From positions 3,100,001-3,164,000 of the forward strand of contig JAHREC010000011.1 of the NCBI GenBank assembly GCA_020081605.1: a stretch of 64,000 nucleotides of DNA, written 5' to 3'. Under the pieces are notes generated by a model. That model was not told where the DNA came from. It was given only the letters and a program-made list of their open reading frames with translations, and did not search any database. The position numbers and the translations under genes were made by a program. Below, piece after piece: positions 40,510 to 60,400 of this stretch (the stretch's first letter is position 1; each line of letters begins with the position of its first letter). This stretch comes from Albifimbria verrucaria (lineage: Eukaryota > Ascomycota > Sordariomycetes > Hypocreales > Stachybotryaceae).

Positions 40510-40667
40510 AGTGTCACAAATTCCGTACGACGCTTCAGATTAGGATATAGTTCTAGCTCAAATGTTGATACTCTAGATATGCGCGGTATAAACTATCCGC
40601 ATTTAACAATTATCTACAATACTCATAAACAGAGCCATTCTTTCAACATGAACCTCATGACCCACCC

Positions 40668-43600
40668 TCACGCTCTTTCCTGTAGCTTCCTTCTGGCCAT
40701 ATCCGCAATCCCTATAATACTCGTCGCTGATAGAATTTCTGTGACACTGAGAACTACGCCAATGTTCCTCCTAATCCAGTTCCGCAATTCTACACTAACC
40801 AAAGAGTCCAATCCAATCATTTCCAAAGCTCCGTCGATGTCAACATCTTCTTCTGTCTGCATCATCAGCCCTCCAAGGGCCGCTCCAATCTCCCGGGCTA
40901 GACGAATGACAGCCTCTTCTGACTGTGCATAGCCTGAATCAGACAAGCATCGTTGCAGAAATTTTTAAGGGAACCAGTATCAGACGCTTGAAAACTGTCC
41001 ATGGCTTCTGGGACTTCGTTCCAGAATGCCTGTACCCTAGCATCATTTCGCCATCCCTTAGAATTGATCCTAATAGGCGATGATGAGACATTGAACTTGA
41101 CACCAAGGGCAATTTGCCACGGTGTTTGGAGATAGCAGTCACGGCCTGTTCTCATGTGAAGCAGACTGTCGCATCGGGGGTTGATTATGAACTCAACAGC
41201 ATCTAAGACGTCCTTTTCACACAAGCTGTGGGTTACTGCAGCGTCAAATGCTCGAAGACGATGTGTCTCCCTCGCCAAAATGCCAATGTCTTCAACAAGT
41301 CCGATGTCAAGCACAGAACATGCAAGACCATTCCGTTGGCGATATTGCACAAAGGCGTCCAAGAAACTGTTGGCAGCCGCGTAGTTGGCTTGTCCCACTT
41401 GACCTCCCAGTCCTGAGAGGGAACTCAGCAGAAGGAAGAAATCGACACTTTCAGGCTGGTCATTCAATGAGTTGTGTATATTCCAAGCACCAGCAACCTT
41501 AGGTAAAACGGCCGATTGCCACTGATCAAAGGTCATGTCAACCATGTCATTGTCCTGTATTCATCAATAATCGCTTGGTGCAGAAACAAAGAGTGACCTA
41601 CTTGTAGTACCATGGCAGCATGGATCACTCCGCCGATCGGATGAGTTGCACTACTCAGAGCTGTTTTAACATGTATCTCATCTTCAACATGTCCAGACAC
41701 CACCTGAATATGGCATCCCATTGATTCAAGCTCCTCGCGGTATTCCGGGTTTGATTTAAGGAATTGCTCGGCAGATCTGGAGAAAAACAGGAGATAGCGG
41801 ACACCTCTTTCAACTAGCAGTCTCGCGCAGGCCATACCAATCCCTCCAAGTCCGCCAATTAGAACGTACGTACGATTAGGTTTAAATTCTGATCGTATGT
41901 GCATTGACAACTTTGCTTTCAAAATCCAGGATTTCCCATGGTCAGCTTTGTCTCTATTGTCTTGTACTGATTCATTATTTGGTGGATCAAAACTATCGTC
42001 AGTGGGGATATGTTGTGACGTTGAAGCCTTATGACTGGATGGTCCGCAAGAGCCAACTTTCGCTACTAATTTGGAGATGTGCAATCTCCGAAACCGATTA
42101 ATGTGTATTAATCCCTGGGATAAAACATACTCGGACTCGAGAACGGGTGAAGGAGACGGCAGCCGGTTGTTGAAGGTCTCAAGGACATTGAAAACTGAAT
42201 TCCAAGATGATTCGGAGAATGTGTCCAACTCCAGAGTAACAAGGTCAATACCCAGCTCATGACGTATAGTACGTGTGAATCCAAGTGTGAGGGAGTATCT
42301 TGGATCAATGCAGTTGATTTGAGACGCCCCTGTCAGCCATAAAGCACCCGTGTCGTCTAGAGACTTGAATGTTGTTTTGAGTTGACTGAATTCTTCTTGT
42401 AACATATCGAAGAGGAATGGTGATTCCAAATCAAGCAGGAAAAGGGATATTCGTCCATGCGGAAGTATTTGACCGATGAGATACCTTGAGGTTTCGACTC
42501 CAAGATCTTCTAGATATGCGCTCAATCCAACCACAAGTGGGTGATTTAAATCTCTGCAGACAACATTGATGTTGATTTGAGACTTAATCCTTTCAGGTGA
42601 AACCAGAGAGACTGTAGGGCATTTTGCGTCACCAAGAGTCTCCATACGGAAGGAATCGAAGCCGGCAAGCTTCAACTTCCGTTTGATCTCGTCTTTGAAA
42701 GCAACGACCCACATCTGGAAGCATATGTGCAGGAGCTATCCGAAATGTTCGGATTGATCATGGCAGTAGATTCAGCTTGGTATAACAGCAAACGACCTGA
42801 TGGGCTGATGAGTTTACCAATTGCTCTCAATATTGCCTCGTCGAGTGCCCGTTCCCTCATAGCCGTCGGGGCAACTATGAGGTCAAAGTAAGCCTGTGGA
42901 AACTTCTGTGCTTCAAAACGTGTGCTGTTACTAAGAAGAAAGGTTCCAGCATCAGATTCTGCATGAAATAATGAATTGGTGGTTGAGAATATGTCCTTTG
43001 GTTCTGCAAAGGTGTAGGTCCTGTAGTGCCGCTCGCCGTGATCCGAAAGTAAAGCCTTCAGCGTAGAGGATTCCGACGATATGGCCTCTTCACCAAGTTC
43101 AAGAATTTGCATTGAAGGATATTTATGGCCGAGAAGCTGGATTGTTTGAGAGAGGTTATTGGAAATTCCTCTCAATAATGAATCCGAGGTTAGAAACGAG
43201 ATGTCAGGTTTCCATTCGAGGATGGCAGCAGCGTGTGGATCCTCATCCTCGAGCGATTTCTCCTTCAAAGAAGTGACCCCAGTCCTTCTATTATAAGACA
43301 TGCAGTACCATTACTATATCCGTGAATTTTGCCGTTTTTGATATGTCCTTGGGTGTAATCGGTCTCAGCTTGTAACTCTAAAGGTCCGCAAACCCCTCTA
43401 ACAGTTATCTGTTTTAGCGAGACAGGGATCTCTAACCCATCAAATTTGCGTTGCAGGCCTTGACTGGAGGCTATCATGCAGAGTTGAAGGCTTGAATCTA
43501 GAGCTGCTGGGTGAATGGTATAGAATGATGTGCAATTAGCAGGCCTTTCATCATCTACAATGCCGGATGCATATGATTTAGTTGTATCAGAGCGCACGTC

Positions 43601-46600
43601 GTGGAGTCCGCGAAATTGAGGCCCATATTCAAGCCCGTATTTCTTCCAAAGATTGTAGAATGGAGAAATTGGAACCTTTCGTGGGAGACGGATCAAGGTT
43701 GAATCAGAGGGATTCGAAGCTGCCTCTGATGCGGCACCACACAACCCCAAGCATGCTCATTCCAAACTCCTTCGTTTAAAGAGGAGATGGAGAAATTGTA
43801 TTGTACAGTATCCAGTTTCGAATTAAGTTTCTTGAGCGTAGTGATCAACTCAATGCTCTCATTCGCCATTGGTAAAGGTGCCGCGAAAGTAACATTTTCA
43901 AGTGTGTATGAAGTTGATTCTGTTAGCTGTCTGGTGGCTTCTCCAATCATAGCAACGAATGCAGTGGCAGGAAAGACAATCTCGCCAAGTACAACGTGGT
44001 CTTTAAGCCAAGGTATGTCTTCAAGTCGTAATACGCTTCTCCACATAGGTGTTGCATCAGAAGCTTCGGATGCTCGACTTCCAAGCAGCTCATGGTGGCC
44101 AAATTGACGAAGTCTTTGTTGTCTTGAGATTCGATTCTCAGCCCAATACTCATGTTCGTAATGCCAGCTATATGCTGGAAGGTCTGGGAGAAAGTTTCCT
44201 GGGCCGTTTACCGAGCTAAGCCGTATATCAACCCCATAGAGCCAAAGTTGACCAGCTGTGAAAAGTATTGAAGTCAGAGAGTCATTATTTCTGACAATCG
44301 TTGGCACATATTGGGCATTGAGCCTTGATTCTTGAAGAATTTGACGAATTGGACCAGCAAGAGCCGAATGAGGACCAAGCTCGATGAATATTGGGGACTT
44401 AAAGTCTTCCAAGAGACGCCGTACTGCTGGGCTGAATAGAACTGGGGATATTAAATTTCTGATCCAGTAGGACGAGGACAAATCCTCAGTGGGCTCCCCT
44501 GTGACTGAGGAGTAGAATGGGATAAGGGTTTCCGCCCTTTAGGAAGATATGCCAGCCGAGATGCGTAATCCGGCGCAACAGTGTTCATATGTGCTGTTTG
44601 ATTGTGAGCCCAAACTCAATGGATTTAAGTTAATGCCTGAAGATGACAAACCTGAATGATAGCCACACTCTACGCGAAGAGCTCTCACAAATGCTCCTGG
44701 AAAACTTGATTGAATAGCTGCCATAACTTTAGGAAGTACTGACGCTTCTCCTGACAAAGTGACACTTGATGGTGAGTTTTCACAGCCTACTATTACTCCG
44801 GGTAAAAGGTACGGCTCAACTTCGCTGCGTCCAAGGCCTACAGCACACATGCTACCATTGTGTGACGCCTTGAGTTGTGGTGTAATTTGGCCTCGGTGGT
44901 AAGCGATAATGATTGCTTCCTCTGCAGTAATAGCACCACTAGCATAAGCTGCGGCAGTTTCACCGGAAGAGTGGCCCACTACTGCGTCTGCTTCAACTCC
45001 CCAGGACTTTAGCAAATCAACAAGGGAGATTTGAATAGCCGCAAGGCAAGGCTGTGAGAATTCTGCCTCATACAAACGGCTTGTTTCCTTGGGTTTTGAT
45101 ATCTCTCCTACATTTCATTAACACATCTTCATTCCTGACCATGATGCTGGTGGTCCAAGATTACCTCTGATTGTCCACGGTGGTGGATTTGGTAAGCTTG
45201 CAAGTACATTGTCTAGCTCGTCAATCCGCTGCTTCACTAATGCATGACGCTCCAGAAGTTCGATTCCCATTTGTGCCCACTGAGCTCCTGGCCAGTGAAG
45301 ACCCAGATGGTTTTCAAACTGGAATTATTGGCTGGTTTGGTGGCTGGTGCGATGTTCAAAGTTGACCCATAATTGGCTACAGCAAACGTGCGATAAGGAT
45401 ATACCTCCCGACCTTTGATCAGAGAATGCGCAATATCAGACAGATTATTCGGGTATCTCGTTATGTAGCTTTCAATATTGACAACTGATCTCATAAGCGA
45501 AGCTGTGTGCTTCGCTGAGAAAACGAGAAGATGGGGACTCGTGGTGGCATCAGGGTTTTGCGCTGAACGACTGAACGGACTCCGTGCTGTGAAGCAGATT
45601 CTAATATAACCTATAAAGTTCAGTTACTGCAGCCGTTGTGAGTTTAAGAGGACATGTTGAGCTTCTCACGTGAGCGTTTGATCCGCCTATACCAAAACTG
45701 CTGACTGAAACTCGCTCAAGTCGATTAGAGGGCCACGGCATCGGCTTTACCGGGACTCGAAGCTTGGCTGAACCCCAAGGTACTAAGCAAAGTTAGTTCC
45801 ATATCCTGCATCGACTCTTGGTGGTCTTACTCATAGGATTTGGAGATTCAAAATTGATGTTTGGGGGTATTGTTGCGTTTTCTAGCGCCAGCACCATCTT
45901 CATGATACTGGATAGTCCTGATGCCCCTTCCCCGTGTCCAATATTTGGTTTCACCTCGGGAAAATATTAGATTATGAATGAAGGTTCGGGCCCATTATCG
46001 ATAACTCACTGATCCTATGTATATACCCTCCTCACCCCATACATTTGCCACTGCTTTGACTTCCAAAGGGTCACCAACCTGTGAACCATGGTCAAATTGG
46101 CAGGCAGTCACGGCTGGTTGGAATTTTACTTACATGAGTCCCAGTACCATGGCATTCTACCATGGCGGTCTGGGAGACATCATTGATGCCAGCAAGCCGA
46201 TATGTCCTTCTAATAAGTCTTTCGTGGCTAATTGGGTCGGGCATGGTCATCCCATTGGATCTTCCGTCTCCAGAAACACAAGTAGCTTTGATGACAGCTC
46301 TTATGGGATCACCATCACGCAAAGCGTCTGTCAGTCGCTTAATGTATATTGCAGAAACAGCATCGCCTCTCCCATAACCATCCGCATTAGCGTCGAATGA
46401 CTTACATTTGCCATCAAGAGATAGAACTCCCTGCTCTGTCATAGCAACAGTATCAGTATGAGACAAGATCAGATTAGCCCCACCAACTATAGCCGAGTCG
46501 CAAACATGGGATCGGAGATCCTGGCACGCCATATGGAGCGCGGTCAGTGATGATGAGCATGCCGTACGTACAACTATACTATAGCATTTCAGGTTTAATT

Positions 46601-47141
46601 CAAGGCTTCTGGAATGGTACAAAAGCACTCACCTCGGTCCTTTCAAGTCAAACTCGTACGATACCCGATTTGCAATGATGTAGTCGCCAAAGACATCGGC
46701 TCGTACGGGGTCAACGTCCAAGCTGTCCAAAGCTTTCATTTGCGTCCAGTCATCACCCATTACCCCAACGTAGACCCCAGTCTCCTTTCCTCGCCAACCA
46801 GTGGTCCCGGAACTTTCAAAAGCCTCATGAACCACTTCCAGAAGCAATCTTTGCCGTGGATCCATCAGACGAGCTTCCTGCTTGCTCATAGACCAGAAGG
46901 CCGAGTCTATATGGGCAAGATTCACATCTTTCAAGAAATACCCATATTTTGTTCCCACTTGAAATGGTTTGCCAGGTCCGTACCATGCGTCAATGTTGTA
47001 GCGGTCTGAGGGCACACGGCACCAGCCAGATTTCCCTTGATGGAGTAGATCCCAATACTGCGAATCCTTGTATACACCACCAGGCAGTCTCATACCCATT
47101 CCTAAAATGGCAATCGCTTCCATAGTCGGGCCTGAATCCAT
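40668..47141 (-). CDS. Highly reducing type I polyketide synthase, KS-AT-DH-(inactive MT)-psiKR-KR-ACP, no ER, seven apparent -1 frameshifts
   Basis: Exons on the minus strand are 47141-46633, 46578-46134, 46078-46010, 45954-45831, 45782-45670, 45610-45165, 45107-44652, 44593-41602 and 41554-40668. All eight introns are 47-59 nt and the phases agree once the breaks are restored; total is about 2015 aa. KS: Cys177 in TACSSS, His in VECHGTGT and [19 protein letters not shown] and Ser616 in GHSSGE. DH: His921 in [10 protein letters not shown] and Asp1088 in [10 protein letters not shown]. The methyltransferase region has [11 protein letters not shown] in place of the SAM-binding glycine motif, so it is probably inactive. 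A structural psiKR ([10 protein letters not shown]) leads directly to KR (GGLGGIG; active Tyr in [10 protein letters not shown]). ACP: Ser1971 in [10 protein letters not shown]. Breaks lie at 45551-45555, 45287-45288, 44525-44528, 43745-43748, 43277-43280, 42708-42710 and 40962-40966. There is no release domain. Confidence 0.9.
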
Positions 47142-48453
47142 TGCGCTTCCAAAAATACAGGAACAATGATGAGTTCAAAATTGTAGAGGTACATGAGCTT
47201 ATGGCAGTCTGTGGCTTATAGCCCAGGCTACCTTGGCGAACTGATGGTGTCTAACCTAACTGATTGGTTCGGTTACCAGCCGCTTATTGTTTTCTTGAAA
47301 CCAAAACTGCTAGCATCAGTCTTGACTATTGGCTTTAGGGTCTATTAGCCTTGATTTTCCAGGTTGGGTGGCCAGGATAGACAAATCCCTGCTTAGCTGA
47401 ATTGCTTCAATCTGCCTCCTACTCGTGAGGGGTCGACAAAGATCAACTAGTGCGTGACCCATGTCTCAAGCTGAACAAGTCTTACTGTATAGCCAAGAAG
47501 CCAAGGTCAGCTTACATACACCACATTAGATTCAAGTGTGAAGCTCAGTTCAGGTAAAAGAGTATTAACGAGGATACAGCCTTTAATAATTCTATACTCT
47601 CTCCAAAGCTTGTTACAGGCAGGAACTTAGATGCTTCTCAGTATAAACTCGAGGAATCATAAAACGTCAAACAATTGGAAGATTGCATGAAATCGGAATA
47701 CTGATTAGCGATCAGCTATTAGCATACCCCTTCGGCATGAGGAAATGTTTAGTCTGGTTGGCCAAACTATTTGTTCTATCATGCTAGGTGTACTAAATTT
47801 CTTCAACACAAAGGGGGTAGGCGACTGGTTCGCTATATACATGCGTTTCTCTCCCCAGTAGAGTACCAATCATTAAGGAACCGCTCTAATGACCCTTTTG
47901 CAAATGTCGCTGGGTCCTGTCGTTATGAAAAATTGTCCTGACTACTGCATTTAGGTGGCAGTAAAGCTGCATATTGACATTCACGTCATCTAAGTTTTAC
48001 CTCCTTTTTCTTTTTTTGTCTACAGCCTATAGATGTGGTTGTCGAACAAGACTAAGAAACCATAATCTTATTCGCTGATGTCCGACAAGCGCGCCAATAT
48101 CAAACGAACCGAGGTTTTGATTTGTGGTGGTCTGCAAACTTCCATTTAGAGTTATCCACAAAAGGACCGAGTAACTAAGCTCGGCAATCAATATTTTTGT
48201 TACTGGTGGCTACATACTTCGTCATCCAGTTATGTCTTTCTCTGTCAAAAACTCCAGGTCATACGACCAAGCTTCCCCGCGCAGATCGTTGGGTAGTTCA
48301 ACCAAGCAGCTGCTCTAAGCCGCCCGATCGTCGCCTCTAGCGTCTGAATCCTGTTGGCAATTGTAATCTATATATTGCGCGAGGCTTTCGAAGTATTTGA
48401 TGAATTCGCAATTGTTTCACTACCTGCCCCGAGTCCTTCCGAATATAATCAAT
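47142..48453. other. Divergent intergenic region between PKS and the glycosidase-like gene
   Basis: About 1.3 kb between two divergent starts; likely contains both promoters. No gene, TATA box or repeated regulator site could be picked out with confidence. Confidence 0.5.
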
Positions 48454-51019
48454 ATGAAAATCCCTACTGCATTTATAGTCACCTCAACCAATCTCTTTGT
48501 TGCGGCAGTTCGAACAACTAGTGAGGAGCTTGGTCTTCATGAAGGAGATTTGTGGTCCCAGCCGGTGGTGAGCAAACGCTAGCTAATTTAACTATTTCCC
48601 TGCTCTAATAATTTCAGGATACTGGCTATTGCCGCCAGAATGGTGATTTAGAGTGTGCCATTTCGAAAAGGAAAGCTATATCTAGCGGCGAGGAGAAATG
48701 TCGTGATTCCAAGGAGTCTTCGTTGAGTCAATTCCACCACTTTCGCTGTTACATTGACTTACAATATGTAGATGTGGGACTGATCAGCTTGAATATTATC
48801 CAGGTCATCTTTCAAGGTCGACTTTAAGAGCTGGGTCCTCGGCCGTACCTTCAGCAGCATCTTGTGATGTTTCACCAACACAGTTCGAACTGAAAGAACC
48901 GCCTTACACAAACTATTTTTATTCTGATTGCCACACAGCCTCCCAGATCGTGGTCACGAGTCCATTAAACACAAGTAATCTAGCCATCATCGGCCCCAGA
49001 CTTCTTGTGAGTTGTCGGAAATCCAAGTCAGAGGGCAGCTGGTACAAAGATACTAAACATTTCTGGAAAGGTGGCTTGGCCTGCTGGTAATAGTGGGATT
49101 GTGGCCTTTTTCCAACCGCAAAACGGCATAAATGGATCGCTGTCTATCTCACTGGTCAAGTCATCGGCAACCGGCAACGCTTTGGAGCCAATTTTTGGCA
49201 TGCCCACTAACGGAGAGCCAATTGTGGGAATTACCAGCTCCCTTTACCTTAACTCATCAGCCGTCTTGACAATTCCGATATTCGGTAGCATTAGGACGAT
49301 TCGCGACTTCACTGAAGGCAATGTCTTGACAGCTAGTATTCAGGCAGCTATTCGAACTTCCGTGCTTGAGGATAATAGCGTCGTTTTACAGCGCTTATGG
49401 CTGGATAATGTCACGACAACCAAGTTGTCTTTCGCTCCAACATCTTCGGATAGTAGGGTTTCGGTCATAAACAACACTCTACACTTTGATTCTGGGACCT
49501 ACGTATTTAACGCCTCATTCGACTATCCTCAGCTTCAACAGCTCAGCCCCGAGGCTGTGTTAAATCCTGGAGCACAAAAGCTGGTAGTACAGGACCCCAA
49601 CCAGACCCGGGCGCTCTCCTTCCTTTCATACAGCAATAAGATCCTCGCCGGTGCGTGGCGTTTTCTCACATACTTCGGCAGAGACAGCATGATATCTATG
49701 CTATTGCTGGAACCGGTCCTCAGTACTGGAAATGGGAGCGCTTTTGAAGCCGGAATAACAGCGGTTCTAGAGCGCATCAATAAAAGTGACGGCAGTGCTG
49801 CACACGAAGAGACTATCGGCGATTACGCAACGTATCTGAACCAACAAAGGAACTTAAGCTCAACAATGCCAGTTTATGACTACAAGATGATTGATACCGA
49901 CTTCTTTCTACCTATTGTGCTTTGCGACTATTTTGTCAAGAATGAGGAGGGAAGGGATCGTGCGCCAGAAGTACTACAACAAATGGCAACTGAGAACCCA
50001 GCAAACAGTGGTTTGACATATGGTGATCTCGCTCTATTGAATTCGGAGAAAATAATGAATCTTGCGGCACCATTTGCAGCACCTGATGGACAGATCAAAG
50101 ACAACCTTATTCACTTGAAAGACAGGGAGGTCGTAGGAGAGTGGCGTGATAGCAATGCTGGTCTTGGTGGAGGCCGTGTGCCTTTTGACGTGAACACAGC
50201 CCTTGTCCCTGCCGCATTGCGCGCTATATCAACTCTCTCGCACGCTGGAATTTTCAATCACTCGGATTGGGAGCAAACTGCGAATGAATACGCCAAGATT
50301 TGGGAGGATAAAACTCTACAATTCTTTGAGGTCGTTGTGCCACGAAACCAAGCAAAATCCCTGGTAAATGACTATGTCGCTTCCAATAACTTTCCTTTCC
50401 TTCTCACACAGATTCTATCGACTCTGATGTTTTTTTCTACGCTCTGTCTCTCGGGGATGAAGGCAGTCTGGAGCCTGTTCGAATCATGCACACAGATGAC
50501 TGCTTCCGACATTTTCTACTCAACACTACTGACCAAAAACAGCTCAGTTCCTTCCTCAACCAAACAGCAGATCATATACTGCGACCTTTTCCTGTCGGGT
50601 TGGGCACAGATATTGGTGTGATTGTGGCCAATCCAGCCTACGCCGGGCAAGTAGAATATGCGGCTAATTTCACTAATTCTGACTATCATGGAACGGTTGT
50701 GTGGTCATGGCAGCTTTCCATGATGGCTGCTGGCCTTGAACGACAGCTTGGACGGTGCGAGGATACGAAGCCTCCACCCGATTTTTGTAGTGACACAACA
50801 TTGCACAAGAAAATCATTAACGCATATAATTACTTGTGGGACCTGATCGACGCCAACTCAGCAAACCTTGGAAGTGAAGTTTGGAGCTGGAAGTTTGAGG
50901 GAGGAAATTTCGTATCAGTTGCTCTTGGGGAGTTGACAGCCACAGAGAGCAATATACGGCAACTGTGGAGTTTAACATTCCTTGCAGTCCGAAGGAATGA
51001 GGGGTTCAGAAGCGCATAG
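48454..51019 (+). CDS. Secreted glycogen-debranching-like six-hairpin glycosidase, one apparent -1 frameshift
   Basis: Proposed exons are 48454-48567, 48618-about 48699, 48804-49006 and 49071-51019, about 782 aa. Introns 1 and 3 are clear (GTGAGC...TTTCAG; GTGAGT...GGAAAG with a TACTAAC-like branch). Intron 2 uses a weak donor chosen by phase, so that junction is uncertain. MKIPTAFIVTSTNLFVAAVRT is a signal peptide. Landmarks of this fungal group are LTYFGRDSMISMLLLEPVL, YKMIDTDFFLPI, GEWRDSNAGLGGGR, PFDVNTALVPAALRAI, MHTDDCFRHFLLN, DYHGTVVWSWQLSMMAAGLE and the C-terminal RQLWSLTFLAVRRNEG. The frame breaks at about 50396-50402, where one lost base separates FPF from SHTDSIDSDVFFYALS. The fold is an alpha/alpha barrel; amylo-1,6-glucosidase-like activity is suggested by similarity only. 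Confidence 0.82.
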
Positions 51020-51720
51020 TTGTAGTTTTTGTGCTTCGGAAGCATATATGAGTGGACGCTTGAGGGATGGTTCTACTGTATTAGCTGATGAAATGGCCTC
51101 TACCCTGAGATCACAATTGATTGTTGGGCGAATATGTCTGGATTTCCTACTTAAGCATAGCAGTACTCTCTCCCATTTGAAAATAAATGTTTATGATAGA
51201 TCTTGAGCTGGACGCCCTCGGCTGTCTGCCATATCAGATGTCATGTCAAGCTCCAGCAGCGTATTTGCCACCCCTGTCGTCAAGGGATATAATCCTTGGT
51301 GGGTACTAAAGGGCAAAGAAAACACATGTGGAATTTTTCGAACCTCTGGCTTCCCAGAATTTGCCTGGTCACTCTCAAAGCACTGTTTTGTCTCGACTTG
51401 AGGCGGTATGCCAACAAGTGACATCATCATGATGGCAGGTATTTGGACGGTTTACAGAACACAGCGGTGCAGAAACTTGCAGGCTAGTTCAACATTCTTT
51501 TCAATCAACTGGTTTATTTTAATGTTTTGTTGAAAACCGCCCGTCAACATGTCACCGGTCAAGCTGTATCCTCAAGATCCAGCACTGTTGGCATCGTCTC
51601 CCACTGAGTCAACGGGCCATAAGTTTGTAGTGGGGTAATGATTTTCTAAAGCCAAACTTTATTTTTTTTTAATCGATGATGAAGCTCTGAGAACTATGCG
51701 CACTAAATATCCTAGTTGAT
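51020..51720. other. Intergenic between the glycosidase-like and ATP-grasp genes
   Basis: Likely promoter of the ATP-grasp gene. A poly-T run at 51661-51670 and chance ORFs (51191-51430 minus) are all that is seen. Confidence 0.5.
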
Positions 51721-53574
51721 ATGAAACAAATTACTGCAGCGGTTGAATGGGACGGCCCGAGCGAAGGCCTGGCTCATGGCATGACGTCAACAGTCATGGT
51801 TATGGAGGAAGACTTAGCTGTTTTGAGACATGACGAATCTCATCTTACCAGTCTTGGCCTTTCACTGGGCGAGACTGTATATATGCAAAAGGCCTTTTAC
51901 TCGAGGGATTAAGTCCTAAGGACACTGAACTGGCTACCAGTTATATCCTCCAAGAAGAGCCCCTTTGGCATCATAACTCCTTCCGCCAAATCAAAATGGC
52001 TGATCTTCCGCAGATTGTCCTCGACACAACGCTGGCAGACCTCTACCGCCAAGCTCCTGCATGTGCGAATAAGCGCATCGCCCAGGTCCTCTGCGGTGTG
52101 AACGCTGCATTCAACTTGACAGCCAATGTGCCACGGAACGTCAAGTATCTGTACCAAGACGGTAGCTTTAACAGCGTCGTGAAAAACACATCCGTATCGG
52201 CTGGTGTACAGCATAAGCGACAACTGGCAATGAAATACCTCTCCCTTATACCGCAGCGCGATGCCTTCATCTGTGGCGATACTAATGCGGTTTTGTTCCA
52301 CCTCGGTGACACACCACAGGCCACCGCACACGACAAGGATGAGGCGGAGAGAACTCTGAAGGTCCTCGCTGAATACCAGCGGCCGAATTTAATATTCTGC
52401 GCGGGTCCTAGTGAAATCCCCATCAAGGACATGGGGATTGATCTCATAGCGCACAAAATTATGCTGGATGGTCTGGAAAGCTACAAGCTCGTCGTTCATC
52501 CTGAAACTCATTGGTTTCTCAACTCAAAGCTGGCCTTGGCCCAGTCCAGTCTACCCACACCCGATTGTGAAGTAATCGAGCTCAAGGGCCATCTCGAAGA
52601 TGTTGAGAAGTGCTGTGCCGCGTGTCAGGATGACCCCATAGCATTCCCTGTTTCAGCACTTTGTGCAGGCACACGGCGCAAGTGGCTTGAAGAGCAAAGT
52701 CTTCTGGTTCTTAATGCAATCTCACGACATCCATTACCTTTTGTTTTGAAGAATCAACAGACTTTTGGAGGTGCCGGCACATACTTGATTCGCACCGAGG
52801 AGGAACGCCGCCAAGTCCTCGACGATTTTCGTCATGGCATTCTTCACAAGTTGCTTTCTTCGGTGATCCGCGCAAACGCTCACCTAAGTCCTGGCACTTT
52901 GATTCTCTCAGATATGGTTCAAAATCCTATAGGCGACTATGGCCTCACCTTCTTTGTCACTGACAACATCAACGACCCGATATTTTTGGGGCATCAGAAC
53001 AGATGACTGATGGCAATGGTGCTTGGATCGGAAGCACCATCAATTACGGCCATCAAGATGACCTGAAAAAGAAATTCTGGCCTTTGGTCCGTAAGATTGC
53101 GGCCTGGTTGCAGTCTTACAACTATATCGGGCCAGTGGGAGCAGACGTTCTGGAGACCAAGCCTCAGACCAACAATATCATTACAAACGGAACAGGGCTG
53201 GATAGTACCAATCCAAAAATCGCCCATACAAATGGAACAAGGGAGACACTAGCCCAATATCTCATTTTCACATTGTCGATTTAAATGTTCGCACTTCAGG
53301 TTCTCTTTGTCTCCCGCTTCTTCACAACCACTTTACAAGTCGGGGTCTATACTCTGCATCATCCTCATCAATTGCCACGAGCTACGACAGGAATTCATTC
53401 ATCAGCCATTTTCAAAATGAATTCAGATCCGGCCGCATGTGCATACTCAGTTGGTTCGAGGACGTGGTGGCTGGAATGAGTTTGGCAGATATTGCCATCG
53501 GCGCTGAAGACGACACCCGACTGAAACAAGCAATGGAGAGGGTAGATAAGCTTACTGAGGCAGTTACTTTTTAA
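51721..53574 (+). CDS. ATP-grasp domain protein (fungal solid-state-culture-specific family), three apparent -1 frameshifts
   Basis: Single exon, 618 aa after restoring three homopolymer bases at 51895-51898 (GCCTTTTACTC), 52988-52991 (TTGGGGCATC) and 53267-53270 (CATTTTCAC). The three segments then form one frame: an N-terminal MKQITAAVEWDGP part with SLGLSLGETVYMQKAF; a core with ADLYRQAPACANKRIAQVLC, FICGDTNAVLFHLGDTP and RPNLIFCAGPSEIPI; and the ATP-grasp half with PFVLKNQQTFGGAGTYLI (nucleotide-binding Lys and Gly loop), GLTFFVTD and FHIVDLNVRTSGS (metal-binding Asn/Arg region). SGRMCILSWFEDV ends it. ATP-grasp enzymes join a carboxylate to an amine or thiol through an acyl phosphate. 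Here it sits between a secreted glycosidase-like gene and an exporter, 4.6 kb from the PKS, so ligation of a polyketide or amino acid is an attractive inference. No signal peptide, so cytosolic. Confidence 0.83.
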
Positions 53575-53808
53575 GACGTTATCGTTCTGTGTTTGAGAGG
53601 TGTTTCATTTAGTTTAAGCATCGTCCAACCCCTCCCTTCCAAAGAATTGAGACTCTATTACTGCATTTTACTCCCACCACCTCATAACAGACGCGGCCTC
53701 TTTTCGATAGACTAGAATATGTCCTACACTTTACTTAACTCTAGAGCGCTTTATAGATGAATTGATCCAACCTTTCTTCTATGAAATGGAAGCACGTTTT
53801 GCATATGC

Positions 53809-55295
53809 TCAGACCTTTACCAATCCAAATATGCCAGCTCCCATCCGCCTTGTCAGAATTATCCTAGCTGCTACGGCAAATAACATGCCTAGAAAAAGGC
53901 ATGTCCCGGCAAACAATTGTGCTCCTAAATAGTCATGGTGTTTTGCATTTATAATTGCCCCAGTAATTGGGGTTCCAGTCAGTGACGCAAAACTCACAAT
54001 GGTAGTGGCCATCCCCATTCGAGTTCCTTGCCTTTGAGGGTCTGGTGTGATACTGCCCACTACTGCAAGAAATAGGCCTTGGAGTCCACCACCGGCAATT
54101 CCGTAAAGACTCGTCCACACATAAAGCCCTATTTTGGAGTGCACGGCCGGCCAGCAGTACATTGAGACAGCTGATAAGAAAGCAAGCGGAGCGTAAACGT
54201 TGATAGTACCCACATGGTCAGCTATATAATTAGGAAGAACGCGACCGATAGCACCAACACCGTTCAATACTAGAAGAAGATCGAGGGAGTGGGAGTACGG
54301 CATATGGAGTATCTCGTGAGCGAAAGAGGCGACGTAATGGAACGAGAAATAAATTCCCCAAAAACACTGCGCAAAGTTAGCCAAGCCAAATCAAGGGCAG
54401 GAAGACATTACACGCACCATGAAGGCTGCAATAACATAGAATGTATAGGCAAGATCCCGGAAAGCGCCCCACTCGATCAATTCTCCGGTTTTACGTGGCA
54501 GCACACGAGTCTTCATAAATACTGCACTCAAAATCAGAGTTCCTAACTGCACGAAAGCAATGGCACGGATCGTCCATGGAAATCCCACGCGTGGGAGTAG
54601 CTGTCGCACCATTGAAGGGAATATCAAGCCACCAGTGACCGCTCCAGCTGAGACGATGCCAATGGCTAGAGCTTTCTTGCGAACAAAATAGGTTGAGGTT
54701 ACTGCCATGCAAGGAGTGAAGAGAAGCCCGTTTCCGAGTCCCATGCAAATACCTTGAGCGAGGAACAACTGCCAATAAGTGGTGCAGAAGGAAGTGGTCA
54801 AAGTGGAAAGGATGAGTAGAAAGCAACCGGAGATGAATAAAGGTCGAAAGTAGCCAGCATCAGTGAGACGCCCAGTAAAGGTCCCCACAAAGAAGAGTAG
54901 AAAGACTTGGAATGAACCTATCCATGAGATATCGGCAGGTGGACGGGAGAGAGCCTCTGTATAGTAAGGCTGGAAGACCCCGAAAGAATTCACGACGCCC
55001 CTTCTTCAATGTTAGATCGAATACGTGCAGAAGTGTACGTTTAATGCTTACCAAGTGTCCATGATAACGAGGTGCGTGCCAAGAACTGGTTTCATCAGCT
55101 TACTACAATCAACTGCAAAGGCAAGCTCAAATCTGAGCAACCTACCCACAGTCCAAGCTTGCCAACCGCCATCGGGGCCAAGTCCAACCTCAGGGAGGCA
55201 GCTGGTAATTGCCCAGGGACACTTTGGGGATAAGATTGCGCATTACCAATGTGGGCGCTGGTTTGTCCTAAGGCCCTATGCTGACCATTCGGCAT
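53809..55295 (-). CDS. MFS transporter, monocarboxylate-permease-like, one apparent -1 frameshift
   Basis: Exons on the minus strand are 55295-55146, 55085-55052, 55000-54418 and 54366-53809; introns are 51-60 nt and exon 2 is only 34 nt. Reconstructed length is 441 aa. The family signature GPDGGWQAWTV at the start of TM1 is followed by VNSFGVFQPYYTEAL, WIGSFQVFLLFFVG, GRLTDAGYFRP, QGICMGLGNGLLFTPC, FRDLAYTFYVIAAFM and GVGAIGRVLPNYIAD, as in fungal MCT-type proteins with 12 helices. The start at 55295 gives a Gln/Ser-rich N-tail; the frame breaks at 55193-55195 (CTCCCTGAGG, one C short), after which PEVGLGPDGGW follows. It may export a carboxylated product of the adjacent genes or import monocarboxylates. 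Convergent with the ATP-grasp gene (234 bp apart). Confidence 0.86.
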
Positions 55296-56481
55296 TTTTG
55301 GAACCCCTGTTGGTTTTGGGTGGCCTCGACTGAATCATAGACCGTTGAAGATTTTTCCTCTTTGTTCGTCTTATACAAAGAGGATGATGCCGCCGAGTCT
55401 GCCTCTGGTCTTGAGAAAGCTGAAGACGCCATGGCAGCGGCCGTCGGTCACAGTCATAGAACGATAAGAATTAACTGCAGGAACGCAAAGGGAGCACTGG
55501 ATACTTATGCCAGTTGTGATGCTGATGCTTAGAAACCGTTGGTCCTCGTTGCAGTATCCTGGCATGTCCAAAGATTCCTGTCCGAAGACGGTCGAGGTGA
55601 CATGGAAAGCAACGGCTTCAGTTATACCGAACTAGGCGAAGCTGGGCGTTGACACGGAATTAAAAGACCCATCACCGACCATTGTCGAATTGAATCATTC
55701 GATGTGCTTCACCATGGTCCACTTCGCTAAGCAAGCTCCATCCTTGGCCCTAAGTTCAACCGAAGTCTGAGGGAGCCAGACCGAAACCCCGATCAAGGAG
55801 AGGAATAAACGAGGAGATATCCGAAATTACTGTGGGGTGAAGCCGGCTTCCCAAACTTTTGTAACGGACTTTGGCTCTAGTTAGTTTGGCTAAGATGGCC
55901 TTGTATGCCTCTGCGTGTGTGCCTGCACATATGGACTGTTGCTGTAAGCAAAAATATACAGGAAAGCATGTCCCTCCGCCATTAGGTATGTGGATCCATG
56001 CATGGATCATCACGACCGTACTTTGTAAGAGCTCGCCCCTCGGAAAGGATTCTGTATACGGCGCTCTGGTTCAATTACTGCATATGTGGTTAGCTCTTGG
56101 TTGTTTAGGCGTGTGCCAGCGCAGACTCCTCAGCGCAATGTCAGGAAGCGAGTCTATCTCAATCCCACAACACATTGTGGCTTTTTTCCACTATGCCTGC
56201 CGTGGTGGTTGTTGTCTTTGGCTTGTTATGATCAAATATGCATAACTCGCATTCTGAAAACGTGGGTCAGGGGTGAGCGTTTTTGGTCAGCACTGAGGGG
56301 CCGTGGCAGGCTTCTCCGCTTCATGAGAATGACTCAGGCTTAGCTAGCGGCGATGTTTAGTCAAGACCTTTTGCCTCGTTGCTAGCTAGACTGGACCAGC
56401 CGGTGAAGCTCCAATAAATACCTCTTTATTTCCGTCAAGTTGGTTTGCGGAGAGTTTTCGGTCCTGACAAATTTATGAAAC
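55296..56481. other. Intergenic between divergent MFS and GNAT genes
   Basis: Presumed shared promoter region. ORFs at 55756-56013 minus, 55871-56245 plus and 56086-56343 plus have no domains. Confidence 0.5.
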
Positions 56482-57241
56482 ATGGCAGCCAACAGCTCCT
56501 TCGTCGGCAACTCAGACGTTCTGGTTGAACTTGTTGAGCAGCCTCAAGATATCGAGCAGGGATTCGAATGCATCTGTGCTACTTTTGGGCACCAGACGCA
56601 TGACGGCGCATGGATTGCTAACAATCCTGGCTGGGACACGGTGGATGGCAAAGCTCGTGGAGCAGCACGTATGGTGGACCGATGGCGCAACGCAACTAAG
56701 AACAAGAATGGAGAGTTAAACACAATATTCCTGAAGGCAACTGTGCCAAATACACAAAATAATGAGCAACGTATCGTTGTCGGCCTGGCCATCTGGCTCC
56801 AGGCCTCAATTGTGCCTGGATACGGCGACGCACCCCGGAAGACCTCGGGACCGCTGTTGATTTGGAAGCCATTTACCCTGGCAATGAGAAAGAGCAGCGG
56901 TACCTACGCCAACTCGATTACAGCTTGCACCGCCAACGCATCGAGCTTGTTAAAGAGAAGGCGACTGAATTGCCTCCCGCCGTCATGGTGCTAGACCTTT
57001 GTGTCGTTGATCCGAATCACCAGAGGAAAGGTATTGCGAAAAGGCTGGTAGAATGGGGGTTGGAGGAAGCAAAGCGCCGCGGGGGCTTGAAGCTATCACA
57101 GAAGCTTCGACAATGGGTAGGACGGTTTATGCCAAGCTGGGATTCCATCAAGAAGGCCCAGAGATTGTTTACAACACGGATGCTGAGTTCGAAGACCGCG
57201 ACAAACCATCGAATATATTCATGCGTACTTGCCCACAATAA
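56482..57241 (+). CDS. GNAT-family N-acetyltransferase, two apparent -1 frameshifts
   Basis: Single exon, 253 aa after restoring one C at 56833-56836 (GCACCCCGG) and one G at 57081-57085 (CGCGGGGGCTTG). The start MAANSSFVG is at the ATG at 56482. The fold landmarks are ELVEQPQDIEQGFECICATF (strand 1 and helix 1), IVVGLAIWLQ (strand 4), VMVLDLCVVDPNHQRKGIAK with the acetyl-CoA pyrophosphate loop QRKGIA, LVEWGLEEAKRRG, LEAITEASTMGRTVYAKLGF (motif B) and a Pro/Asp-rich end IFMRTCPQ. Such fungal GNATs acetylate small amines or other nucleophiles; the substrate is unknown. Position next to the transporter and ATP-grasp gene makes a tailoring or self-protection role possible. It is convergent with the kinase gene (171 bp apart). 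Confidence 0.85.
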
Positions 57242-57412: not shown

Positions 57413-60400
57413 TCATCCACCGGCGTGAAGGAATTGCTGCCAATCGTTCTCATCATACTGGCTGCCTAAATCATTGAACAGAATTTTGGATAGCTCCTCT
57501 TCCTCCTTCGTCAGGCAATTGGGGTTCCACATGTCAAGAGGATCAAGGGTTGGTTGCGCCTGCTGTGCTGGACCAGCCGTCTCTTTCCTAAATGCTCTAG
57601 ACGATTCCATCGAGGGCATTTCCATCCAAGAATCCTGGGATGACTGACTACATGCCATCTGGCTGAGGCCATCGGATACTAATGATGGAACTGAAGACAG
57701 AACGGTTTCATTTGCCGCCGTATGCGAGGTGGAGTGAGAGGTGGACTGGCGGAATTGCCTAGCTAGATCCAGGTACCCTTGAATCTTTGCAATAGTATCT
57801 GCATCCGCTCCTGGAATGACGCTTTGAGTCAAGAATTCGTCAAATTGCTCTAGAGACGTCGCATTGACTTGAGCAGTAGACTTTGGTGAGGATTCCTCTT
57901 GAGAGCTTGCACCCTCACAATCTAACACACATGTATCAGTGGCTGAGATCGATAACCAGAATGGACTTAGGGACTTACAAGGCCAAGGGACTGGATCAGA
58001 TTCAGAAAGACCAAAAATTATGCGATAAATGTCATTCCAAGCACCCTCTTCCGACCTTCCCCGTGGTCGCTTCCTCATCAATGCTCTCTGAGCCTCGGTC
58101 ACTCGAAATTGATGTTCCTGGCTAACCTGGCAAGGAACATCGGATTTCTGATGTTGGCTAAGCTCATAAGGGTCTGAGAAGGCTGACAAACACCTGGAGC
58201 ATGTATTTGCCTGAACGGAGTGTTTCCGGTCGATATGCTCTCTGTCACGTCCTGTTAGTTGGATAAAAATATGAGGAAAGGCGGCGTACTTGACACGATG
58301 AATAGTGGTCCATCCTGGACCCACGCAAGTCCTCCATCGAGGATCATGAATTCCAAATGTCTGTGGATCGTACTTATGAAAGGGACAGGCAAATCGGGGA
58401 GCTGAAGTAGCTGTACTCGGCTTGGGAGGAGAATCAACGCCGCATTTCTGCCGAGTCCCTTTGTTCTTTCTACCGGCAAGCGAGTTACCAATATTTTGAG
58501 GACAGGCCATAGGCTCTAGGCGTCTATGTTTTGTTTGACTCTCTTGAACTGCTTTACCCACACCCTCATACCGTCGCTTTGCACCTGGTGTTAGCTTAGG
58601 GACAGAATTGCTGTGTGAAACACCCGTGGGTAGTGCTGGTTCGGTAAGGTTATCGATGCACGCATCACTCCGTACAAAAGGATGTACAATTTGGCTAAAT
58701 GACGACCATCCAGGGGTACAGATAAGTCCGCGTGCACAATGCCTGGCTCCGTATGATACGACCTGTCTTGTTGTGGTTGAGTAAGTACGTCCATACCAGG
58801 AATCGATTGAGGCAATTCATCCAAAATGGCAGATGGTGTAGCAGGAGCTCCTGTGCTGTCTTCAGACGAGATTCTGGACTCCGTGGGGAAAAGTGAGCTC
58901 ATGTCTGCAACATTATGAATGTCTGATGACTCAATCTCCACAGAAGTAGCCGGTTGAGATACGTTGAGTTTTGATTGATTCAAGAATTTGTGGTGCATTT
59001 GCTGCAACCTGGTCACGATCTCGGAGCTAGAGCTTCTCTGAGTTTCTTCGACAACAAGCATGCTCTTTCCTATCAATGCAGAAAGTTCCTCGACGTATGC
59101 GTAGGCCGCTGGTGGTTGCTCCTGGCCATTGGCCCTGAGTCTGTCCATCCACTAGATTTTCTTTAGTGACATTTCTCCTTTCGTTTTCATGGCATACTGA
59201 CCTTTGTAACAGTCACCTTGACAGCGGCTTGAGTCCTAAGAGGAAGAGATAAATCTGCATCAGTAGTCTTGACATTCTCCCAAAAGCTTTATCTCCTTGC
59301 CATTTTCGTTTGAGATACTCGTCGTGGATCTTTGGTTCTCCAATTCCTTGATTCCGTCCAAGCCGACAAGAGACCATGTTAAACATTCCAGTAGAACACA
59401 TCCCAAACTCCAAATATCGTAAGAAACGCCGATTTCACGATCGGGAGAGTCGTATTCAGGGGCACGGTAGGCGGGTGTACACCCTAACCTCCTAGAGCCT
59501 GAAGCTGAGGGGCTAGAGCCAACCCCGACAAGCCGAAGTCGGCAATCTTCCAAGTACCCATCATGTTTGGGCTCTCTGGGTCCGGAAACCAGAGGATGTT
59601 TCCAGGTTTGATGTCTCCGTGATGTCCAACATCATTGGAATGGTCGGTATATGGTGACCCAAGGAATTGATGCACAGCACTCAATCCAGACGCGACACCG
59701 AGACATTGGTTGGACAACCACAACGTTGTCTTTAGACCTGGACCATCAGCTGGCAGGGGTTACTCCGCCACCACTCGCTCAGATCGCTGACAGCCCAGGG
59801 AAACATGATATTGAAGTAGCCGTCTTGTTGCCATGCTGACAGGAACTCGAGAATGTTGGGATGCCGTGGAACGCCAGGTGAATTGAAGCGTCGTAGGGCT
59901 CTCAATTCACGACAAAACGAGTCTTTCTCAACAGGGCGCACTCGTTTCACCGCGAACATGAGCATAGGCTAGCAAGCAACTTGTTGGTAAAAGAGTACAT
60001 TTAGACCATTACGGGCATGGGTATTGCTCCGCTCGAAGGAAGAAAACAGAACTGGACTGGTTCGCACCTCGCTTGAATCATTTTGGAGATGCGACGGGTG
60101 GATTTTCACCCGGAAGATCTTGGATGTGCCACCCCGACGTTGAGTGTCGGCGTCGTCGTGAATAAAAGGAAGGACAGCCTTTGGGGAGAGGTTGATAAAG
60201 GGTGCATTCTTGCCAAAGACTGGTGCTAGAACAACCCATTGCTGCTCTTCGAAGGCCTCGATGGCCGAGCGATCCCACAGGCCAAAGCAAGGGCGGAGAG
60301 AGGTCGTCTTATCCTTGGCCAGAACGTGAGGCTCGTTCCTGGAAGGTGAATCTTGGATGTATATCGGAAGTATATTGTCACTGGCCGTGTTCTCTATAAA

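Follow-up and report, generated by a model that had tools for sequence, protein, structure and literature searches.

The soa cluster of Myrothecium sp. FJNU6 makes sorbic acid and sorbamide. In the parts of its description drawn on here, the hydrolase SoaB releases the chain and the asparagine-synthetase-B-type enzyme SoaC then amidates sorbic acid (PMC13284220). A second route to amide formation is offered by ATP-grasp enzymes, which phosphorylate a free carboxylate and then join an amine to it. Cp1B, AnkG and FsqD are ATP-grasp enzymes of fungal natural product clusters, and in the passages drawn on here Cp1B is described as structurally closest to homoglutathione synthetase (PMC12568646). 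In the portions of the open-licence PMC literature covered, which included PMC13284220, PMC12568646, PMC5999785, PMC8518118, PMC4713082 and PMC3202869, we found no report of a HR-PKS paired with an ATP-grasp enzyme.

Locus and gene content

The DNA analysed here, referred to as the window, is a stretch of 64,000 nucleotides from Albifimbria verrucaria (C8:3100001-3164000) in an assembly of 48,410,092 bases and 41 contigs. All three minus-strand frames of 40600-47201 and all six frames of 47301-57202 were searched for Pfam families, as were the longer open pieces of the rest of the window. The four genes that an initial annotation of this DNA had listed for a candidate biosynthetic cluster, and the debranching-like gene that it placed between two of them as a possible bystander, are present, as judged from Pfam matches, homologues and translations:

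40668..47141, minus strand: HR-type PKS, KS-AT-DH-(degenerate MT region)-pseudoKR-KR-ACP (Pfam, KS matches, tblastn with P0122)
about 48454..51019, plus strand: secreted 'glycogen debranching enzyme'-like protein (homologues, P0199 alignment; N-terminus by eye)
about 51996..53574, plus strand: ATP-grasp protein of the 'solid-state culture specific' fungal family
53809..55432, minus strand: MFS transporter (PF07690, 84.7 bits against a cut-off of 33.4; ends from translation, by eye)
56482..57241, plus strand: GNAT N-acetyltransferase (PF00583 above cut-off; ends by eye)

The region 57413-59631 gave a protein kinase match (PF00069) of 27.0 bits, below the cut-off of 31.7, and shows by eye a C2H2-like spacing of cysteines and histidines. 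Open pieces farther out in the window match two AA9 proteins, an SDR, a cellulase-like GH5 protein, an M20 peptidase, a PEP-mutase/ICL-type protein and an HRXXH peptidase. The first 8600 positions of the window form an extremely AT-rich block with a GC content of 9.5%, whose edge lies between about 8.4 and 9.3 kb. In this block the ratio (CpA+TpG)/(ApC+GpT) is 0.38, compared to 1.32 in 10000-64000, and TpA/ApT is 1.11 compared to 0.71, as expected for repeat-induced point mutation.

Domain content of the PKS

On the minus strand the PKS matches the KS, AT, DH, pseudo-KR (PF23114), KR and carrier domain (PF00550) families, each over the Pfam cut-off. The open pieces of the gene match KS, AT, PKS_DH_N, PS-DH, PF23114 and KR, and the three-frame scan adds the ACP (PF00550, 29.1 bits against a cut-off of 20.8, together with PF23297). 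Motifs that we take to be those of KS, AT, DH, KR (S-Y-N) and ACP (DSL) can be read in the translation.

An ER is usual in a HR-PKS, though not obligatory, and an active C-methyltransferase is optional. The scan of the three minus-strand frames of 40600-47201 returned no ER family (PF00107, PF08240 or PF13602) and no methyltransferase family; the glycine-rich motif is absent by eye from the methyltransferase region, and the open pieces gave one sub-threshold match to Anamorsin_N. Neither a thioesterase nor a reductase was matched as a release domain, in the open pieces or in the same three frames. An identical scan of the closest PKS paralogue by KS (C10:479000-488900, the locus with the KS segment next most similar to P0122, a PKS discussed below) served as a control and returned, over three frames, families of the ER (PF13602, PF00107) and of the methyltransferase (PF08242 among them), along with KS, AT, DH, KR and ACP. 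Since the scan recovers the ER of this frame-broken paralogue, frame changes do not hide an ER in the window PKS, where the pseudo-KR and the start of the KR lie within a single open piece of 400 residues. The enzyme had been annotated as having no ER, no active C-methyltransferase and no release domain, and all three absences held.

P0122 is a PKS of Paramyrothecium foliicola with 1987 amino acids that is named 'VdtX' in its record. Residues 7 to 1984 of P0122 align collinearly with 47120 to 40677 in a tblastn comparison, with an identity of 78% in the KS segment, 63% in AT-DH, and 69% and 54% in two other segments. Toward the KR end, where identity to the window is 54% over residues 1690-1900, the C10 paralogue is about as similar to P0122 (57% over residues 1599-1823); in part of the KS the paralogue reaches 66%. 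As the window locus is the highest-scoring match for P0122 in the whole genome, P0122 is likely, though not certain, to be the orthologue of the window PKS.

We aligned 14 PKSs chosen from the list of PKS homologues. P0122 is without two stretches between the pseudo-KR and the KR (125 and 155 residues in P0123), and on this alignment the missing part is the ER. It is also about 95 residues short at the methyltransferase region. Like the window PKS, P0122 has the pseudo-KR and matches no ER or methyltransferase family; at one position of the DH motif it has N where G is usual. An ER-less PKS is therefore probably common to the window and to P. foliicola, given that the two are likely orthologues.

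If the window PKS is a working iterative fungal enzyme, the loss of its ER and the degeneration of its methyltransferase would leave extensions that are reduced and dehydrated but neither saturated nor methylated. The expected product would be an unbranched, conjugated polyene acyl chain on the ACP.

Broken reading frames

Several genes of the locus do not run in a single frame. In tblastn comparisons the PKS gene aligns with P0121 (828 amino acids in a single open frame, 96% identity over 97% of the scored region) as four pieces in three different frames, and the ATP-grasp gene aligns with P0001 as three pieces in three frames, in both cases with no room for an intron. The alignment of the debranching-like gene with P0199 falls into two pieces, 91% and 99% identical, each in a frame of its own, and a frame change inside the GNAT gene is seen by eye. 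Frame changes in four neighbouring genes are what decaying pseudogenes would show, but we hold decay to be very improbable here, as the near-identical P0001 and P0121 are open and conserved genes elsewhere in this assembly break as well. A search for the HSP70 family gave 22 matches, among which five successive pairs change frame with overlapping coordinates and no room for introns. These pairs fall in four loci, on C8, C10, C15 and C36; the largest HSP70 match, on C15, is unbroken from 28 to 598 of 599.

Given the open frames of the near-identical copies and the breaks in HSP70 genes, consensus errors are a likelier cause of the frame changes than decay, and the assembly consensus seems to have frequent indel errors. 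In positions 10001-64000 of the window, G/C runs of at least five are rarer than in one shuffle (24 compared to 70), while A/T runs of at least five are not (92 compared to 79). The scarcity of G/C runs fits run-length errors, and codon use could contribute to it. Broken frames in this assembly should therefore not be taken, by themselves, as evidence of pseudogenes.

The ATP-grasp protein

A 390-residue piece of the ATP-grasp protein is 99% identical to P0001 over 85% of its length and 75% identical to P0002 of P. foliicola; among the matches listed, those that follow P0002 come mainly from Colletotrichum and Stachybotrys. We take the fungus to stand close to Paramyrothecium. The protein is encoded at one locus, with no second copy in the genome at E<=0.001, and judging from its homologues the family is widespread in fungi. 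At E<=0.1 the family PF02655 was matched in 19 of 37 members, P0001 itself giving no match.

A confident model of the predicted structure has the ATP-grasp fold, and the nearest fold is that of Staphylococcus aureus SAOUHSC_02373 (PDB 7r8p, 7r8q), which is presumably an amino-acid ligase. The two proteins are 17% identical over the aligned part, the fungal protein being longer and having a conserved cysteine motif. A sequence search of the PDB with P0001 gave no match at E<=1, and a search with the family profile gave weak matches only (7r8p, E 0.16). Three cysteines, at residues 207, 210 and 223 of P0001, are invariant in 37 aligned homologues and form a C-x2-C ... C pattern that is possibly a metal site. 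The earlier suggestion that the protein could be a carboxylate-amine ligase agrees with the ligase-like fold that the model predicts. An uncharacterised and widespread family of fungal ATP-grasp proteins now has a confident fold model.

Linkage in other species

The initial annotation had named conserved linkage of the PKS and ATP-grasp genes in relatives as a test of the cluster. As a proxy for linkage we compared by eye the species names and contig sizes among the matches listed. Ten species appear by name in the ATP-grasp list as well as in the PKS list, and in one of them the two proteins come from contigs of equal size. This is P. foliicola, in which both contigs have 4,207,603 bases. With the size of the present assembly as a yardstick, the chance that two unrelated genes share such a contig is about 9%, so the support that P. 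foliicola gives to linkage is weak. The other nine are Colletotrichum species (orchidophilum, falcatum, sublineola, zoysiae, truncatum, trifolii, graminicola, chlorophyti and fioriniae), where the contigs differ in size, although some of these come from different strains or assemblies. These negatives count for less, since the PKSs listed for Colletotrichum have ER families and are perhaps not orthologues of the window PKS. The outcome is thus a weak positive from one species set against nine negatives.

The debranching-like protein has 1866 homologues, of which 120 were listed, many under the name glycogen debranching enzyme; a Pfam search at E<=0.001 gave it no family. Its list and that of the ATP-grasp protein have six species names in common, and contigs of equal size were found in two of the six, Stachybotrys chartarum IBT 40293 (196,344 bases) and S. 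elegans (2,084,969 bases). This was not seen in Sarocladium strictum, Verticillium albo-atrum, Monosporascus sp. CRB-9-2 or Bathelium mastoideum. Of the proteins with a species name, none of the 78 PKS matches is from Stachybotrys and none of the 120 debranching-like matches listed, out of 1866, is from P. foliicola; matches lacking a name could belong to either. These lists suggest that within this fungal family the debranching-like gene would be a better-supported neighbour of the ATP-grasp gene than the PKS is, that the pair (48454-53574) is possibly a long-standing block there, and that the PKS looks like a lineage-specific neighbour. The debranching-like gene had been regarded as a possible bystander, and with respect to the PKS this description fits; yet it has contigs in common with the ATP-grasp gene in the two Stachybotrys species, if not in the four others.

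It could be proposed on this basis that the PKS and the MFS transporter, perhaps with the GNAT, form a pathway alongside which the ATP-grasp and debranching-like genes persist as an older block. The equal-sized contigs in two Stachybotrys species, and a list of PKS matches with no named Stachybotrys protein, are what such an arrangement would produce. The MFS and GNAT genes, however, sit beyond the ATP-grasp gene on the side far from the PKS, and in four further species the ATP-grasp and debranching-like genes lie on separate contigs, which makes this arrangement quite unlikely in our estimate.

One pathway or several neighbours

ATP-grasp enzymes activate a free carboxylate (in the passages drawn on from PMC12568646), so the polyketide chain would have to be released before an ATP-grasp enzyme could act on it; unloading of an acyl-ACP thioester by the ATP-grasp protein itself is not expected. 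We found no hydrolase in the six frames of 47301-57202 (Pfam, E<=0.001), where only the GNAT and the MFS transporter were matched, although the silence of Pfam is not proof, since the ATP-grasp and debranching-like proteins are also unmatched in that scan. On the other side of the PKS the search covered the longer open pieces, and a hydrolase there may have escaped it.

The earlier interpretation stands in part, with its domain assignments upheld and its case for one biosynthetic cluster weak. The genes are present and adjacent, but a single pathway is little supported, with weak evidence of conserved linkage, no hydrolase found in 47301-57202 and an ATP-grasp family that is widespread. In a real small cluster the PKS would make a polyene acid that is freed by a hydrolase from elsewhere, the ATP-grasp enzyme would couple this acid with an amine or amino acid, and export of the product would fall to the MFS transporter. 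The ligase-like fold of the model would suit such a role, and there is a precedent in Myrothecium, where a HR-PKS, a hydrolase and an amidotransferase are described as leading to sorbamide (PMC13284220). Adjacency in the window and the 4.2 Mb contigs of P. foliicola point the same way. Against these stand the contig evidence from Colletotrichum and Stachybotrys, the hydrolase not found in 47301-57202, the spread of the ATP-grasp family and the fact that Pfam revealed no pathway-specific regulator in the pieces of the window scanned. Weighing the two sides, we regard a single small cluster as unlikely.

What we consider rather probable is that a working, polyene-type PKS, broken in frame by consensus errors, lies beside unrelated genes and that the ATP-grasp protein acts independently of it. 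The polyene chain would then be released by an enzyme encoded elsewhere, or in a spontaneous or lactonising step. Independently of the PKS, the ATP-grasp enzyme would most likely ligate amino or carboxylic acids of small size, and the debranching-like protein, the MFS transporter and the GNAT would be ordinary neighbours. The equal-sized contigs of P. foliicola count against this explanation, as they make linkage within the genus possible.

Comparison with known systems

A likeness to Cp1B, AnkG and FsqD is one of class alone, as all are fungal ATP-grasp enzymes; Cp1B is not among the fold matches listed for the window protein, and its absence there is not evidence either way.

Trichothecene biosynthesis is an unlikely role for the window PKS, as the main match to TRI5 (trichodiene synthase family) is on C4, not near the window. 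The distance between that match and a PKS KS match is about 12 kb (C4:677912-691971).

The soa system resembles the window in having a HR-PKS without a release domain in a related fungus, and the unsaturated product of the soa PKS is amidated. Within the parts of the description drawn on here, the soa system differs in that SoaA has an ER, which the window PKS does not, and in that amidation is by the asparagine-synthetase-B-type SoaC, where the window has an ATP-grasp protein (PMC13284220). None of the five genome matches to PF00733 falls in the window. With no ER and no PF00733 match, the window PKS was rejected as SoaA. Elsewhere in the genome, at C33:515592-524230, an asparagine-synthetase-B-type gene (GATase_7 and Asn_synthase) and a PKS are about 7 kb apart in a soa-like arrangement; no hydrolase was matched at that locus, where one piece was scanned on both strands and the other on the plus strand only.

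The window contains what we rate as an ordinary PKS locus, specific to its lineage, and it has given a domain-level description of an ER-less PKS that P. foliicola probably has as well. We also considered a route particular to the Paramyrothecium lineage, in which the polyene acid of the ER-less PKS would be coupled to an amino acid by a recruited, amino-acid-ligase-like ATP-grasp enzyme with no need for an NRPS. We give this route a low probability, but if the two genes do function as a pair they would represent a fungal, NRPS-independent amidation of a polyketide acid beside the recently described soa route.
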